NCBI RefSeq assembly: GCF_020889685.1
Contig: NZ_JACMYO010000002.1
Location: 1-64,000, forward strand
DNA: 64,000 bases
Origin: Bradyrhizobium oropedii
GTDB taxonomy: Bacteria > Pseudomonadota > Alphaproteobacteria > Rhizobiales > Xanthobacteraceae
Direction: 5' to 3'
Under the pieces are notes generated by a model. That model did no database searches. It saw nothing but the letters and a program-made list of their open reading frames with translations, and was not told the origin of the DNA. Below, one piece after another: positions 37,532 to 50,652 of the stretch (position 1 is the stretch's first letter; every line of letters starts with the position of its first letter). The position numbers and the translations under genes are program-made.

Positions 37532-37672
37532 TAGCTGAAATAGTCCGGCTCAGCGGACCTCTGCGACAATTCGACAGCAGAACCGGCGTCGGTCGGCCGC
37601 AGATTGCCGCTCGGCATGAACCTTCGCCTGACGGCCTCCGACCCATCTCCGATGCCATTGTCGGAGGCCGCC

Positions 37673-39103
37673 ATGCTTCGCCGTTCGCTCCTCAGCCTGA
37701 TCGTTCCGGTTGCGATCCTGTTCGGTGTCGCGCCGGCATTGGCGGAAAACCGCCTGGCGCTGGTGATCGGCCAATCGGCCTACAAATCGGTGCCGGCGCT
37801 GCCCAATCCGGCCAACGATGCCAAGGCGATGTCACAAATGCTGACCGATGCCGGATTTGCGGTGACGTCGGCATCGGATCTGTCCCAGGATGAGATGCGG
37901 GCAGGGATCAGTGAGTTCGCGGGGCAGGTGGCGGCCAAGGGCGCCGACACCGTCGCGCTGGTGTTCTATGCCGGCCACGGCCTGCAGATCGACGGCGAGA
38001 ACTATCTGGTGCCGGTCGATGTCGATCCGAAGCGTGAGGCCGATATCCCGATCCAGGCGGTTCGGCTCAACGACATCCTGAACACGCTGACCTCGGTGCC
38101 GAGCCGGATGCGCATCGTGCTGCTCGACGCCTGCCGCAACAATCCTTTCCCGGAGCTCAGGAAGACCGCCGGGCACGGGCTTGCCATCATCGATGCCAAG
38201 GTCGGCGCGCCCGGCACCTTTGTGTCGTTCTCGACTTCACCGGGCGCGGAGGCCGAGGACGGCAGCGGCGCCAACAGCCCTTATACGACCGCGTTGCTGG
38301 CATCGGCCAGGGAGCCTGGAATCCCGATCGAGGACACCTTCAAGCGCGTTCGCCTCGCCGTGAACAAGGCGACCGAGGGCCGCCAGACGCCGTGGGACTC
38401 CTCGTCGCTCACCGACGATTTCCGCTTCATGGCGGGTGCGGCGGCCTCGCCCGAGGCGACGCCGAAGCCGGCGGCGGCCAAGCGCACCGTCGATGAATGG
38501 AAGCGCGAATTGCAGGGGAAGCCGATCGAGGCGGCCAACGAGTTGATCGTGGTCGACGGCACCGACGAAGCCTATGAAGCCTTCGCCGCGGTCTTCGCCG
38601 GCACGCCGCGCGGCCTGCAGGCGCGCGACTGGCTCGACCGTCATCGCCGCATGGTGGCGTGGAGCGACGCCATCCTCGTCAACACGGCGGCGGCCTATCG
38701 CAGCTTCCTCGTGCAACATCCCGACAGCGACCTGACGGCGACCGCGCGCAAGATGATCGAGCGGCTGCGCTACCGCCCCGATCTGACGCCGGCCGCCGCG
38801 CTCAGCGTGCCCGCGACCAACGTCGCGCTGGCGGCACCGACCTGTCCCTGCAACGCGGCGCCGCCGGCGCAGCAGAAGGCCGCAGCGCCCGTGAAGAAAC
38901 GTGCCGATCCCGATCCGCCGCGGCGCGCCGGCAAGCGCCCGCCGCGCGTCGTGGTCGAGGACGACGTGGTGGTGGTGCGTCGTCCGCCTCCGGCCGTGGT
39001 CTACGAGCCTGTCGGACCGCCGATCGGAATCGGGATTGGCATCGGCGGCGGCGGTGGTTATCGCGGCCATTATGGCGGCGGTTATCGCAGGGGTGGATAC
39101 TGA
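37673..39103 (+). CDS. Secreted caspase-like (peptidase C14) protein
   Basis: This 476-residue protein has a signal peptide (LRRSLLSLIVPVAILFGVAPA), then a caspase-like domain: RLALVIGQSAYKSVPALPNP, catalytic His H102 in FYAGHGLQ and Cys C154 in LLDACRNNPF. The middle holds repeated helical segments, and the end is Pro/Arg-rich then a Gly/Tyr/Arg-rich tail (GIGIGIGGGGGYRGHYGGGY). Bacterial caspase homologues act in proteolysis or stress; the substrate is unknown. The ATG at 37673 is chosen for the signal peptide. Confidence 0.88.
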   Translation: MLRRSLLSLIVPVAILFGVAPALAENRLALVIGQSAYKSVPALPNPANDAKAMSQMLTDAGFAVTSASDLSQDEMRAGISEFAGQVAAKGADTVALVFYAGHGLQIDGENYLVPVDVDPKREADIPIQAVRLNDILNTLTSVPSRMRIVLLDACRNNPFPELRKTAGHGLAIIDAKVGAPGTFVSFSTSPGAEAEDGSGANSPYTTALLASAREPGIPIEDTFKRVRLAVNKATEGRQTPWDSSSLTDDFRFMAGAAASPEATPKPAAAKRTVDEWKRELQGKPIEAANELIVVDGTDEAYEAFAAVFAGTPRGLQARDWLDRHRRMVAWSDAILVNTAAAYRSFLVQHPDSDLTATARKMIERLRYRPDLTPAAALSVPATNVALAAPTCPCNAAPPAQQKAAAPVKKRADPDPPRRAGKRPPRVVVEDDVVVVRRPPPAVVYEPVGPPIGIGIGIGGGGGYRGHYGGGYRRGGY

Positions 39104-41886: not shown

Positions 41887-41900
41887 TTGATCTAGATCAA
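41887..41900. promoter_or_regulatory. FNR/FixK-type box
   Basis: TTGATCTAGATCAA is a perfect 14-bp dyad and matches the FNR/FixK consensus TTGAT-N4-ATCAA. The nearest gene downstream on the same strand is the cyclase at 42334, about 430 bases away; the nearest downstream on the other strand has none. The distance is longer than usual, so the link is tentative. Confidence 0.6.
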
Positions 41901-42333
41901 CCCGAAATTGAGCCCTCCCGTTTCTGTATGCCTCACCATTCGTCAAGGGACCCCACTATCGAAAACGCATTCGAGCGAAACAGCTCTTCGAGCAGTGTCA
42001 CGAACGAAGCAACGCACGCCGCTGTTGCACCGACCTGGAGGTTTGGTCTTCGTATTCTGCCGCAATTCGAGCCCAATGCGAAGGCGAGGCTACGGCTGCT
42101 GGAGACGCCAGCTATGTTGATCTGCTGACGTGTCTTCAGATGACGGATGGTACAAATCCGAATTCTAGTACCAGTCTTAAGGGCGCTAGCAGAAGGAAAT
42201 CTCCGAAGTGATTGAAACGCGCATTTAGCAAAGCTTTCACTCCAAGGCGCAGCCTGTGGTGAGTTGATCTAAGCGGAGTGCGATTCGCTGTTTTCCCTTG
42301 AGTATGACAGGACGTCCTGAAAGGCGCGGCAAG

Positions 42334-44229
42334 ATGTTCACATTCCGAACATCGATAACCTTCGCTGTGATGGCATTCGTTGCCGCGCTGGCTGGACTCT
42401 TGATCTTCATTCAGTTCTGGACCCTACGTCTGGCCGCCGAGGAGGCGGCGTCCGCCCGCATGGATGCGGCCAGCGCAGAGACGCTGGGGCGCCTTCAGAA
42501 TGAAATCTCCAAAATCACGTCACTTGTTCACGTGCTGTCGAGCAGTTCAAGCGTCGCCGATTCAGAGGAAAGATCGGAAGTCGGCCCCGCAATTCCACTG
42601 TTCAAGACCGCTCTCCTCGAAGTGCCCAAAATGGACTCAATCTATGTCGGCTACGACAATGGAGCCTGGTTGCAGGTGCGGCCTTTGGACCAACTGAATG
42701 AGGAGGAACAGGCGAAGCTAAGGGCGCCGCTGGGCGCTTCCGTTAGCGTCAGCTTGATCCGTCCTACCCCATCCGGCGCCTTGCCCATGCGACGGATCTT
42801 CGAAGACCCGCAAGGCAACCAGCTCGAGCAGCTCGATCTGTGGAAATACGGTTACGACCCACGTAAGCGGTTCTGGTATATTGACGCGATCAAGGCCGAC
42901 CGGGTCGTCATATCGTCGCCCTACGTTGCATTCAGCATCGGCGCACCCGTGATCACCGTGAGCGCGCCGTTGCGGGGGAAAGTGCGCGGCGTCATCGCGG
43001 CCGATCTCAAGCTCGACGATTTCAGCGATTTCGTCTATGCGCAGCGGCCAGGGGAGCACGGAACAGCCCTGATTTTCGATCAGGCCGGGATGCTTGTTGC
43101 CCACCCGGATTTTGCGCAATTCGTCGCAAATGCGATGACGCATCCCTCGCACCCGCAGCATTTCAACCTCAAGGAAATGGGCGGCGGACTGGCCGCGTCG
43201 ATCCTGAAAGCGTGGAATGGTGGCGGCCAGTACGATGGAAGTATTCGCGAGCGAGGGCTAGATTTTCTTTTCCGGCTGAGGAAATTCAAACTGGGTGAGC
43301 AGTTTAGCCTCAACGTTCTGATGATCGCGCAGCAAGATGATTTCGTAAAGGATATCCAGAAGCTGCAGCGCGTCGGGCTAATCATCGCGGTGACTGCTTG
43401 CGCTGCCTTTGTGCCAGCTGTTTGGCTTTTCGGGAGCAAGATATCACGTTCTTTGAAAACCATAACGGTCCAAGCCGGCAAGCTCCAGACGCTGCGTGCC
43501 CCCGACAGCTCACCGGTCGGTTCATACATCAAGGAGGTTCAAGAGCTCGGCCTCACCGTGAGCCTCGCGCAGCGCGCAATCTGGTCGTTCTCGCGATTTG
43601 TCCCCAAGGAGCTCGTCAGGCGAGTCGTCGACAATTCAATCTCCAGTGAACTTGGCGGCGTCAGGCAAGAAATCACCGCCCTCTTCACCGACGTTCGCGG
43701 CTTCACGACCATTGCTGAATCATCGGACCCCGATGCTCTCATGCACCAGACATCCCGCTATTTCACTGTGTTAACGGAGGCCTTTCTCGCCGAGGCCGGG
43801 ACGGTTGACAAGTTCATCGGCGATGCGGTGATGGTTTTCTGGAACGCCCCAAATTCACAGCCCGATCACGTCGAGCGCGCTTGTCGGGCAGCTCTTGCAG
43901 GCAAGATTGCCAGCGAACAGCTTAACGCCCAATTCGAATCCGAAGGCCTACAGCCGTTTTTCACGCGGTTCGGCATTCATGTCGGCGAGGCCGTGGTCGG
44001 CAACCTCGGTTCGGCCGAACGGATGAACTACACGGCCCTTGGAAGCACAGTGAATCTGGCCGCCCGCCTCGAAGGCCTGAACAAGGAACATGGAACCGCT
44101 ATCCTCGCCAGTGAGGACGTTTACTCTCGAGCCCGGCATTGCTTCCGGTTCAAGGAGATCGGTTCGGTCATTGCCAAAGGCATGACCAAGGCAACCCTCA
44201 TTTTCGAACTCATTGAGGCAGGGGGATGA
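42334..44229 (+). CDS. Membrane adenylyl cyclase (class III) with periplasmic Cache-type sensor
   Basis: This 631-residue protein has a first membrane helix (about 7-28), a large periplasmic double-Cache-like domain (about 45-330), a second helix (about 346-367), a HAMP-like linker and a class III cyclase domain (about 440-630). Metal-binding residues are D453 (LFTDVRGFTT) and D497 (DKFIGDAVMVFW); K493 and T567 (NYTALGSTVN) select adenine, and N574/R578 complete the site. The Lys-Thr pair is typical of class IIIb bacterial adenylyl cyclases. AAAGG lies 9 bases before the ATG at 42334; TTG/ATG at 42298-42304 have no site. Its stop overlaps the next gene by four bases. Confidence 0.88.
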   Translation: MFTFRTSITFAVMAFVAALAGLLIFIQFWTLRLAAEEAASARMDAASAETLGRLQNEISKITSLVHVLSSSSSVADSEERSEVGPAIPLFKTALLEVPKMDSIYVGYDNGAWLQVRPLDQLNEEEQAKLRAPLGASVSVSLIRPTPSGALPMRRIFEDPQGNQLEQLDLWKYGYDPRKRFWYIDAIKADRVVISSPYVAFSIGAPVITVSAPLRGKVRGVIAADLKLDDFSDFVYAQRPGEHGTALIFDQAGMLVAHPDFAQFVANAMTHPSHPQHFNLKEMGGGLAASILKAWNGGGQYDGSIRERGLDFLFRLRKFKLGEQFSLNVLMIAQQDDFVKDIQKLQRVGLIIAVTACAAFVPAVWLFGSKISRSLKTITVQAGKLQTLRAPDSSPVGSYIKEVQELGLTVSLAQRAIWSFSRFVPKELVRRVVDNSISSELGGVRQEITALFTDVRGFTTIAESSDPDALMHQTSRYFTVLTEAFLAEAGTVDKFIGDAVMVFWNAPNSQPDHVERACRAALAGKIASEQLNAQFESEGLQPFFTRFGIHVGEAVVGNLGSAERMNYTALGSTVNLAARLEGLNKEHGTAILASEDVYSRARHCFRFKEIGSVIAKGMTKATLIFELIEAGG

Positions 44230-45527
44230 AGACCTCGTCGTCGACAGCGCCCCGTCGCCGGTTCGGATGGGGATTGCTTCTGTTGCACCTGCTGTTTGCC
44301 GCTCCTGTAGCTGGCGCAGACGACAACACCATTCGGGTCGGCATTCTTCATTCGCTTACCGGCACCATGGCCATCAGCGAGTCGGTGCTCAAGGACACGG
44401 TACTCATGCTGATTGACGACCAGAACCGGAAGGGTGGTCTGCTCGGGCGGAAACTCGTGCCGATTGTTGTCGATCCCGCCTCCGACTGGGATCTCTTCGC
44501 CGAAAAGGCCCGGGATCTGCTCACGAAAGAAAAGGTCGCAGTCGTGTTCGGCTGTTGGACCTCGGTATCACGCAAGTCCGTCCTTCCGGTCTTCGAGCAA
44601 ATGAACGGCCTGCTCTATTATCCCGTCCAGTACGAGGGTGAGGAAAGCTCCCGCAACATCTTCTACACGGGAGCTGCGCCCAATCAGCAAGCGATCCCGG
44701 CCGCTCGATACCTGATGAGCAGGGAGGGCGGCGAGGTTCGCAGGTGGGTTCTTCTCGGCACCGACTATGTCTATCCGCGCACGACCAACCGGATATTAGA
44801 AGCCTATCTCGCCTCAGAGGGCGTTTCGCAGGAAGACATCATGACGATCTACACGCCATTCGGCTACGCCGACTGGCGTGAGATCATCGAGCGCATCAAG
44901 AAGTTCGGAACCGAGGGGAAAAAGATCGCGGTCATTTCAACCATCAATGGCGATGCCAACACATATTTCTACAAGGAGCTCGCAGCGCAAAAGGTGGACG
45001 CCAATTCCATTCCGGTCATGGCATTCTCTGTCGGCGAGCGCGAGCTACTGGGCATGGACGCGAAGTCTTTGGCCGGCCACCTGGCGGCCTGGAATTACTT
45101 CCATTCAGTCAAGTCACCCGAAAATGACGCATTCATCAAAATGTGGAAGGAGTTCACCGGAGGCAAGGATGAAACCACCAATGACCCGATGGAGGCCACC
45201 TTCGTCGGCTTCAGGATGTGGGCGCAGGCTGTGGCGCAAGCGGGCGCGACAGAGGTCGATTCGGTTCGTCAGGCCATGTACGGGCAAAGGGTAAAGGCGC
45301 CAAGCGGCTTTGAAGAGGTTATGAACGCCAACCACCACCTTTCGAAACCGATCATGATTGGCAAGATCGACGCCGCCGGGAAGTTTGAGGTCATTTGGCG
45401 ATCGATCAATCCGATCAGGGCCGACGCCTGGAGCAAGCACATTCCCGACAGCGCCAAGCGTACCGCCGATTGGACTTTTCCTTGGGTGTGCGGAGGGTGC
45501 ATCGAACCGACCTTCAAAGAGTGGTGA
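44226..45527 (+). CDS. UrtA-like periplasmic binding protein, orphan of its ABC transporter
   Basis: This 433-residue protein has a signal sequence with a possible twin-arginine motif (RRRFGWGLLLLHLLFAAP) and a mature UrtA/FmdD-type domain: TIRVGILHSLTGTMAISES, VFGCWTSVSRKSVLPVFEQM, YPVQYEGEESSRNIFYTGAA, AWNYFHSVKSPENDAFIKMW and a final TADWTFPWVCGGCIEPTFKE. UrtA binds urea or short amides. No permease or ATPase gene is near. It starts ATGA inside the cyclase stop, so it is translationally coupled to the sensor cyclase and may serve as its periplasmic ligand sensor. Confidence 0.9.
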   Translation: MKTSSSTAPRRRFGWGLLLLHLLFAAPVAGADDNTIRVGILHSLTGTMAISESVLKDTVLMLIDDQNRKGGLLGRKLVPIVVDPASDWDLFAEKARDLLTKEKVAVVFGCWTSVSRKSVLPVFEQMNGLLYYPVQYEGEESSRNIFYTGAAPNQQAIPAARYLMSREGGEVRRWVLLGTDYVYPRTTNRILEAYLASEGVSQEDIMTIYTPFGYADWREIIERIKKFGTEGKKIAVISTINGDANTYFYKELAAQKVDANSIPVMAFSVGERELLGMDAKSLAGHLAAWNYFHSVKSPENDAFIKMWKEFTGGKDETTNDPMEATFVGFRMWAQAVAQAGATEVDSVRQAMYGQRVKAPSGFEEVMNANHHLSKPIMIGKIDAAGKFEVIWRSINPIRADAWSKHIPDSAKRTADWTFPWVCGGCIEPTFKEW

Positions 45528-49176: not shown

Positions 49177-50652
49177 TTATTTGGCCGTGACATGCACGCC
49201 GGGCCTCTTGCCGTCATTCCACTTGCCGTCGATGGCGCGTTCGATCTGGGCGGCGAGTTGCAGCAACAGCCCGTCATCGGCCTGTTTGCCGATCGCCTGA
49301 ATGCCGAGCGGCAGGCCGTGCTCATTGGTCGCCAGCGGCAGCGAGATGGCCGGGATGCCGCAGAGATTGGCGAGCGGCGTGAAGGCGAAGTTGCGCCAGA
49401 GATTGCCGAACCAGTCCAGCACCAACGGATTGTCGCTGATGGTGAGATATTCCGTGGTGCCGACCTTCGGCGTCGGCAGCGCCGTGATCGGCGTTAGGAT
49501 GATGTCCCAATCCTCGAAGAAGGAGCCGAAGCCGCGAGACGTCGTGTTGAAGACAGCCTGCATGCGCGCGCGATCGGCGAAGCTGGTGTCGCGGCCATGC
49601 TCCCAGATGCGGATATTGATCGGTTCGATCAGATCCGCCGGCGGTCGCTCCAGTCCGCGTGCTGCGAGCATGTTGCCGATCACGACGGCGAAATTGCTGA
49701 TGTAGCAGGTGGTCTGTGCCGCGAAGGCGTCCGCGTAGTCGATCGCCGGCAATGCGTAATCGACCTGATGGCCGAGGCCTTCAAGGAAGCGTCCGACCCG
49801 CTCGAGCTCGGCTGTGATATGCGGCGTCGCGCGATAGTCGCCCCAGCTGTGCGACAGCGCGATTCTGAGCCGGCCGGGGTCGCGCGCGACCATCGCGGTA
49901 TATGGCTCAGCCGGAGTCCAGAACGGCATGAATTCGCCGGGCGCGGGGCCGCGGCAAGTGTCGACGAAGGCGGCGGTGTCGCGCACCGTGCGCGACTGGC
50001 AGCCCTGGATCGAGACCAGCCCGGAGAGATCCGACAGATGCGGCGCGAGCGAGAACACGCCGCGTGACACTTTCAGTCCGATATTGCCGTTGACGCCGGC
50101 GGGAATCCGGATCGAGCCGCCGCCGTCGGTCGCATGCGCGATCGGCACCGCGCCGGCGGCGACCATCGCCGCGCTGCCGGCCGACGAGCCGCAGGTGGTG
50201 TAATCGGTGTTCCAGGGATTGCGCGTGACATAGACCGCGGGGTTCTCGGCCGAGCTGCACACCCCGAACTCCGGCGTGGTGGTGCGGCCGATCAAATTGA
50301 GACCGGCCTTGCGCAGCTTCGTGGTCAGGAAGGTGTCGTCCGCGGCGCGATTGCCGCGCATCATCAGCGAGCCCATTTCCTGCAACCGGCCCTTCAGCGT
50401 CGGGCCGAGATCCTTCATCAGGAAGGGCAGGCCGGCGAACGGGCCGTTGAGATCGGCGCCGTCGCGCGCGGGATCGGCGATCACGTCGTCGAACAGCTCG
50501 ACCACGCCGGAGAGCGCGGGATCGACCTTGGCGACCGCGGCGGCGGCCTGGGACGCAAGCTCCCGCGGCGTCAGCTCGCCGCTCCGGACGCGCTCGGCGA
50601 GCGCCGTTCCGTCATGCTGCGTCCACTCGTCCCAGCTCATCGCCAAAGTCAT
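49177..50652 (-). CDS. Amidase signature family enzyme
   Basis: This 491-residue enzyme has the Ser-cisSer-Lys triad in context: catalytic Lys in GPFAGLPFLMKDLGPT and the Gly/Ser stretch NTDYTTCGSSAGSAAMVAAG followed by IAHATDGGGSIRIPAGVNG. It hydrolyses a carboxamide of unknown identity. Starts at 50652 (MTLAMSW) or 50640 (MSWDEW) are both possible. It heads a leftward pair with the thioesterase. Confidence 0.92.
   Translation of the reverse strand: MTLAMSWDEWTQHDGTALAERVRSGELTPRELASQAAAAVAKVDPALSGVVELFDDVIADPARDGADLNGPFAGLPFLMKDLGPTLKGRLQEMGSLMMRGNRAADDTFLTTKLRKAGLNLIGRTTTPEFGVCSSAENPAVYVTRNPWNTDYTTCGSSAGSAAMVAAGAVPIAHATDGGGSIRIPAGVNGNIGLKVSRGVFSLAPHLSDLSGLVSIQGCQSRTVRDTAAFVDTCRGPAPGEFMPFWTPAEPYTAMVARDPGRLRIALSHSWGDYRATPHITAELERVGRFLEGLGHQVDYALPAIDYADAFAAQTTCYISNFAVVIGNMLAARGLERPPADLIEPINIRIWEHGRDTSFADRARMQAVFNTTSRGFGSFFEDWDIILTPITALPTPKVGTTEYLTISDNPLVLDWFGNLWRNFAFTPLANLCGIPAISLPLATNEHGLPLGIQAIGKQADDGLLLQLAAQIERAIDGKWNDGKRPGVHVTAK

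Follow-up and report, generated by a model that had tools for sequence, protein, structure and literature searches.

Positions 41887–45527 of a 64,000 nucleotide (nt) stretch of the Bradyrhizobium oropedii genome (assembly GCF_020889685.1, contig NZ_JACMYO010000002.1, positions 1 to 64,000), which as a whole is called the window here, hold two genes on the forward strand. The first (42334–44229, +) encodes a receptor adenylate cyclase of 631 amino acids, and the second (44226–45527, +) an orphan periplasmic substrate-binding protein (SBP) of 433 amino acids that belongs to the family of UrtA, the binding protein of the UrtABCDE urea transporter. The two genes overlap at an ATGA (44226–44229, +), where the start codon of the SBP overlaps the stop codon of the cyclase. 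A first-pass annotation made from the sequence alone had read this arrangement as a signalling unit that converts urea or an amide into a cyclic AMP (cAMP) signal, and here we weigh that proposal against the residues of the two proteins, their distribution and their relatives.

Domain organization of the two proteins

The cyclase consists of a first transmembrane (TM) helix (residues ~6–28; 42349–42417, +), a periplasmic dCache domain (residues ~31–343; 42424–43362, +), a second TM helix (residues ~346–368; 43369–43437, +), a helical linker and a class IIIb catalytic domain (43672–44226, +). The TM helices were placed from hydropathy windows, and the periplasmic and catalytic domains correspond to the Pfam matches of the protein, dCache_1 (PF02743) and Guanylate_cyc (PF00211), in agreement with the domains first described. 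The gene is likely to start at ATG 42334 rather than at the in-frame TTG 42298, since orthologues align from the ATG.

The catalytic domain contains D453 and D497, which we take to be the metal-binding aspartates, K493 and T567, presumably the adenine pair, and N574 and R578, presumably the Asn and Arg of class IIIb adenylate cyclases. All six are present in the 36 aligned cyclases of the pair, window included, which bears out the Lys–Thr pair reported earlier, and the same catalytic residues are found in all 18 other cyclases aligned. With the class IIIb residue set complete, the protein is predicted to be an adenylate cyclase that should make cAMP.

In the structural model of the cyclase, residues 30–339 match the tandem Cache domain of PscC (Z 21.7, root-mean-square deviation 2.5 over 241 residues), and the best fold matches of the sensor are mostly amino acid or amine chemoreceptors (PscC, Mlp24, PctA–C and PctD). 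The model is weak in the linker and in much of the catalytic half and is interpreted here for the periplasmic part only. LuxQ chains were absent among the 50 fold matches listed, which leaves similarity to LuxQ possible.

The SBP scores 529.2 bits against TIGR03407 (UrtA; cut-off 492.75), contains the Pfam domain Peripla_BP_5 (PF13433) and has, by eye, a Sec-type signal peptide at residues ~1–30. It also matches AmiC (E 1e-50). In net charge the SBP core is no different from UrtA, and the structure prediction for the SBP, being poor (mean pLDDT 47.1), was kept out of fold searches.

Nine residues are reported to surround urea in Prochlorococcus UrtA, of which eight are conserved, and mutation of Phe192 to have little effect (PMC10392092, in the part of that report used here). 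The window SBP retains all eight conserved contacts of the P. marinus UrtA–urea complex (W111, S113, Y132, Q135, E137, Y181, N241 and S268), and F192 is replaced by tyrosine, as it is in all 15 Bradyrhizobium transporter UrtAs. Across 35 aligned SBPs of the pair five of the contacts are invariant, and Y190, N246 and S274 are kept in 33, 28 and 34 sequences respectively. The seven sequences in which N246 is altered, to T, S or I, are L067, L068, L069, L071, L072, L074 and L148, and two of these also change Y190 and one also S274. Because all eight conserved residues are retained, urea is probably the ligand of the window SBP, which narrows the earlier suggestion of urea or an amide; because one or two of them change in the seven sequences, the ligand may have shifted in those lineages.

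Conservation of the pair in Bradyrhizobium

The pair was followed through 265 Bradyrhizobium genomes with cut-offs of at least 55% identity for the sensor half and at least 69% for the SBP. The sensor half was found at 39 loci in 34 genomes (G093:C118, which is in two pieces, being counted once) and the SBP at 33 loci in 29 genomes, and all 33 SBP loci are located 696–714 nt behind a sensor match on the same strand. Of the 39 cyclase loci, 33 have an intact SBP downstream, one has a frameshifted SBP (G182, L061), one has both genes broken (G093:C118, L214) and four lack this SBP. G015 (L117:3901–6363) carries a dCache sensor of the pair type joined to an Acyl_transf_3 domain that replaces the cyclase, with no SBP within the 10 kb read, and G054, G109 and G196 carry cyclase loci without a UrtA-like SBP.

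The ATGA overlap described for the window is general to the pair. A 4-nt overlap is found in all 35 junctions aligned (33 distinct loci, as L144 and L150 repeat L066 and L073) as well as in the window, reading GTGA in two and lying a few bases further on in L061, and it persists down to 63% cyclase identity. Such coupling would tend to fix the ratio of cyclase to SBP.

The surroundings of the genes are not conserved with them. When 32 pair loci (30 distinct) were compared, the genes flanking the pair in the window were not found around the others, except for an amidase (85% identity) in two and a single 41% match. The absence of transporter genes, first noticed in the window, extends to these loci: no homologue of urtB or urtC was found in the 32, and the ABC ATPases present in two of them share just 22% and 26% identity with UrtD. 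The amidase-family gene lies at 49177–50652 of the window, and its 85% homologue stands ~1.7 kb behind the pair in L067 and ~4.1 kb behind it in L074; the remaining 30 pair loci gave no such match.

Both genes are under purifying selection, with ratios of nonsynonymous to synonymous substitution rates (dN/dS) of 0.08–0.32 in eight comparisons. Distances between SBPs follow those between sensors (r = 0.90), while each follows the UrtA of the same genomes only at r = 0.10 (55 comparisons of 11 pairs). This pattern suggests joint inheritance of the pair, out of step with UrtA, and is one that any co-inherited operon would give, so that it does not imply contact. The linkage of cyclase and SBP is not due to chance, and the concern raised with the original proposal, that the pair might be peculiar to this strain, is answered by the 33 intact pairs in the genus.

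Outside the genus no close orthologue of the sensor was found in order-wide (397) and phylum-wide (398) genome samples, which partly cover the same genus, the best match there being 25% identical. GTDB contigs scanned by pattern yielded 27 loci, 19 of them with the SBP behind the cyclase, five matching in the catalytic domain only and three from Rhizobiaceae. The B. oropedii genome itself has 30 matches to PF00211, 29 of them over the cut-off, and among the 21 of the 30 with enough sequence past the stop codon an SBP was seen, by eye, only behind the window cyclase. No single-chain fusion of SBP and cyclase was noticed among the open reading frames listed, in which no systematic search for one was made.

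Separate urea transporter and origin of the SBP

A complete urtABCDE is encoded elsewhere in the B. oropedii genome, adjoining a urease alpha-subunit gene, and its UrtA is 62–63% identical to the SBP. The first-pass annotation had allowed that a transporter elsewhere might be the better partner for the SBP; the urtBCDE that we found has a UrtA of its own. Among 15 other pair-bearing genomes read, urtBCDE lies beside UrtA in 14, and in the fifteenth the contig ends after urtA. In the 398-genome phylum sample the 14 best unlinked homologues of the SBP all adjoin urtB, so a transporter is the usual context of these proteins. The window SBP is UrtA-like in its score and its eight conserved urea contacts, yet it stands at a locus without urtBCDE.

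In a tree of 54 sequences, which included 12 SBPs of the pair, these form a single clade (support 100/99) that is sister (100/96) to a second orphan group encoded beside GntR-aminotransferase-MOSC proteins. The transporter UrtAs of the genus fall in a separate clade (100/99) with the pair SBPs outside it. Comparison of 35 pair SBPs with 15 transporter UrtAs gave 45 near-fixed differences, some of them at ends or gaps, which include the acidic-to-basic changes D161R and E272R.

The second orphan group (L126–L131, for example L130:2119–6456 and L126:2261–6605) comes from six genomes of the genus. By Pfam, its SBP gene in L126 and L130 is divergent to that of a GntR-aminotransferase-MOSC-rubredoxin protein. 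The urea contact Q144 is glutamate in all five aligned sequences of the group, and no urtB was found in the five loci searched.

Related cyclases and their neighbours

Three cyclases that are ~60% identical to that of the pair have no UrtA-like SBP and are convergent to a gene for an SBP_bac_8/SBP_bac_1 protein (L114:4533–7904, L115:3368–6751 and L116:3631–7000), the three binding proteins being 78–81% identical to each other. No ABC permease was present in the nine flanking open reading frames scanned at these loci, one of which encodes a major facilitator superfamily protein. Among eight more distant Bradyrhizobium cyclases (46–50% identity), three have a gene for an SBP_bac_3-transglycosylase (SLT) protein upstream on the same strand (L120:7234–8670, L123:2723–4198 and L124:2776–4251), and no SBP was seen, by eye, beside the other five.

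In Rhizobiaceae, three cyclases of 43–44% identity are convergent to a Peripla_BP_6 protein (identified by Pfam in L075, with 95–99% identical proteins in L076 and L077), and in L076 this is followed by two BPD_transp_2 permease genes on the opposite strand. These three loci were discounted as support for a signalling partnership since their SBP has permeases beside it. A distant dCache cyclase beside urtA in G304 (L195) was dropped for a similar reason, as urtBCDE follow. At L195 and L245 such a distant cyclase is accompanied by an alpha/beta hydrolase gene and is divergent from a complete urtABCDE.

Several families of periplasmic binding module recur beside this cyclase family, and translational coupling is found only for the UrtA-like SBP. 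On the cyclase tree, the SBP_bac_8 neighbours may have branched either before or after the UrtA coupling. At least 33 of 34 pair sequences retain each of twelve cyclase positions that are missing from the ~60% and 46–50% relatives; the twelve include W170 and K171, which sit just before the Cache motif. To judge from this pattern of conservation, W170, K171 and the other pair-specific positions are candidate contact sites.

Upstream DNA and neighbouring genes

The FNR/FixK-type palindrome TTGATCTAGATCAA at 41887–41900 is the sole strict match to TTGATN4ATCAA in the window, so the box reported in the first-pass annotation is real. It stands 447 nt before the ATG here, and the same box stands 73 nt before the ATG in the sister species B. 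uaiense (L058), which lacks ~375 bp between box and gene (41935–42309, from blastn of the upstream stretch). From 42042 on, this DNA matches B. altum (L057) sequence upstream of the cyclase, and there, judged by eye, it forms the end of a small gene for a secreted protein, which is seen whole at that locus. FNR/FixK-like sites occur in six of 34 upstream regions (those of 33 fetched loci and the window, two further loci having none), compared with ~0.035 expected for each from base-shuffled window sequence. As only these six regions hold one, the box is not general to the pair, and because of the large spacing the link to low oxygen drawn earlier is doubtful in this strain; some lineages may be under oxygen control.

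Further upstream the window contains a gene for a pyrroloquinoline quinone-dependent dehydrogenase (PF01011; 39176–41200) and one for a caspase-domain protein (Peptidase_C14; 37604–39103) whose N-terminus is signal-like and whose tail is rich in glycine.

Discussion

On balance we favour the view that together the two genes specify a single receptor in two pieces, comparable to LuxP/LuxQ, with cAMP as its output and probably urea as its signal. In such a receptor the UrtA-like SBP would be exported to the periplasm, where it would bind urea, or possibly a small ligand akin to it in certain lineages, and close. The closed SBP would then dock on the periplasmic dCache domain of the cyclase, and docking would shift the arrangement of the dCache domain and the TM helices, and hence that of the dimeric class IIIb catalytic domain, so as to set the output of cAMP. 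Class IIIb cyclases can also respond to bicarbonate, and since urease yields bicarbonate from urea, a second, cytoplasmic input of this kind is conceivable. What was observed on the sequence side are the protein families, the catalytic and urea-site residues, the coupling, the conservation of the unit, the absence of transporter genes beside the pair and the separate, complete urtABCDE; from these we infer the binding of urea, the contact between SBP and dCache, the sign of the effect on cAMP and the CRP-family target downstream. The partnership proposed in the first-pass annotation thus gains strong comparative-genomic support from linkage, overlap and flanks, with physical contact as its presumed part. 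Among characterised histidine kinases activated by SBPs, 10 of 11 are described as genomically associated with their SBP gene (PMC11113362, in the part consulted).

Several points weigh against this interpretation. The same source also reports adjacent SBP and kinase genes whose products do not interact. The pairs stem from one coupling event and, as far as sampled, from one genus, and the loci are not independent; coupling to an SBP is not typical of cyclases at large. As the eight Bradyrhizobium cyclases of 46–50% identity have no UrtA-like SBP, the cyclase family can work without a coupled one. The dCache domain, furthermore, may bind a ligand of its own. The amino acid motif of dCache_1AA domains is given as Y121, R126, W128, Y129, Y144 and D173 (PMC10104139, in part). 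The counterparts in the window are Y174, R179, W181, Y182, Y197 and the Asp of an AADL stretch, and within the 36 sequences of the pair the four aromatic positions (Y, W, Y, Y) are kept in all, the Arg in 33 and the Asp in 32.

The alternative that survives best, which we consider unlikely but worth keeping in view, accepts a real signalling unit and has the SBP sense something other than urea, such as an amide, a carbamate or a guanidine-like compound. It would account for the changes of N246, Y190 and S274 in seven of 35 sequences and would fit the relationship to AmiC, which binds amides. The window SBP has all eight conserved contacts, however, and its F192Y is shared with the transporter UrtAs of the genus, which argues for urea at least here.

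Rather less credible is that the dCache domain itself binds an amino acid or amine and that the SBP is a co-regulated second input or a buffer of ligand rather than the activator. The retention of the motif in most pairs and the fold matches to amino acid and amine chemoreceptors suggest such a role, but in L066 (the same locus as L144) and L146 the alignment shows both the motif Arg and the Asp to be replaced while the urea site of the SBP is intact. A further Asp that we take to belong to the motif (D146 of PctA) is Ala or Ser in all 36 pair sequences, and the invariant coupling of the SBP would be left unexplained. A direct ligand of dCache is therefore possible and is probably not needed in every lineage. 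An apparent mutual exclusion between loss of urea-site residues in the SBP (seven sequences) and loss of the dCache motif (four) was dropped, the sequences being too few to set against chance. Class IIIb cyclases can also respond to bicarbonate, and since urease yields bicarbonate from urea, a second, cytoplasmic input of this kind is conceivable.

We find it harder still to accept that the SBP is an alternative binding protein for the UrtBCDE encoded elsewhere, with the cyclase a mere neighbour. One permease shared by two SBPs is known from other systems, and the identity of 62–63% to the genome's own UrtA and the retained urea site would suit such a role. Against this, each of the 33 intact copies is coupled to the cyclase, urtB is beside none of the 32 loci read, the SBPs fall outside the transporter UrtA clade of the genus (100/99), and they differ from transporter UrtAs at the 45 near-fixed positions, D161R and E272R included. 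Finally, we give almost no credence to a vestigial or selfish pair that hitch-hikes as an operon without joint function, since its patchy occurrence (cyclase at least 55% identical in 34 of 265 genomes), the one locus with both genes broken and the sensor fused to an acyltransferase are outweighed by dN/dS well below 1 in both genes, by catalytic residues that are all kept and by a pair that stays constant while its flanks vary.

The two-piece receptor that we favour resembles LuxP/LuxQ, in which adjacent genes encode a separate periplasmic type I binding protein and a membrane receptor with a tandem PAS/Cache domain. The Bradyrhizobium pair likewise has an SBP beside a receptor gene, no transporter at the locus and a tandem Cache periplasmic domain; it differs in having a class III adenylate cyclase in place of a histidine kinase, an SBP of the UrtA family, and the receptor gene before that of the SBP. 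In a published table LuxQ appears as a Cache domain that has neither cofactor nor ligand (PMC8694187, in part). PDB 5ere, titled as an extracellular ligand binding receptor, has a dCache domain at residues 353–593 (PMC8694187, in part), and its front part may be a type I binding protein, which we note as a lead only. More generally, the pair shares with SBP-activated receptors their genomic association with the SBP and, presumably, the read-out of a loaded SBP by the receptor. The receptors listed as activated in this way are chemoreceptors, histidine kinases, cyclic di-GMP enzymes and Ser/Thr kinases, and adenylate cyclases are not named in the portions of the two sources used here (PMC9602780, PMC11113362). 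An SBP-regulated adenylate cyclase was not found in the literature searched, whose coverage excludes most subscription journals and is no proof of absence.

With the UrtA of UrtABCDE the SBP has in common the TIGR03407 family and the urea contacts, and it differs in being coupled to a cyclase, without urtBCDE, and in its separate clade. AmiC/AmiR offers a precedent for a UrtA-related binding protein that serves regulation rather than transport; AmiC, however, is cytoplasmic and acts on an antiterminator, whereas here an exported SBP is paired with a membrane cyclase. The natriuretic peptide receptor guanylyl cyclases of animals also combine a type I binding-protein fold outside with a class III cyclase inside, and the cyclase profile matches 9bcv at 4e-5. 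Those receptors are single polypeptides and are not known to have a Cache domain, whereas the Bradyrhizobium pair consists of two polypeptides.

This last comparison leads to a broader idea, which we put forward tentatively: the ligand half would be a separate and exchangeable periplasmic binding protein, making the pair a split counterpart of the natriuretic peptide receptor cyclases. UrtA would have been recruited once, for urea, with one set of lineages shifting ligand through the urea contacts, and sister cyclases might work with SBP_bac_8 (three), SBP_bac_3-transglycosylase (three) or Peripla_BP_6 (three, in Rhizobiaceae) proteins. If so, extracellular urea would set the level of cAMP, possibly together with a second, direct input through dCache.

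Few of the signals of rhizobial class III cyclases are known. Rhizobia hold about thirty of these enzymes (29 PF00211 matches over the cut-off here, and 31 reported for Sinorhizobium meliloti, PMC5498481, in part). Those of S. meliloti include CyaD1, CyaD2 and CyaK, receptor-like adenylate cyclases that respond to a plant signal described as unknown, with no SBP partner mentioned in the part of that source consulted. The Bradyrhizobium pair offers one rhizobial cyclase a concrete ligand, a partner and residues to mutate. If our interpretation is right, adenylate cyclases would join the classes of receptor that are read through binding proteins, and urea would gain a signalling role apart from its uptake in a genus of legume symbionts.

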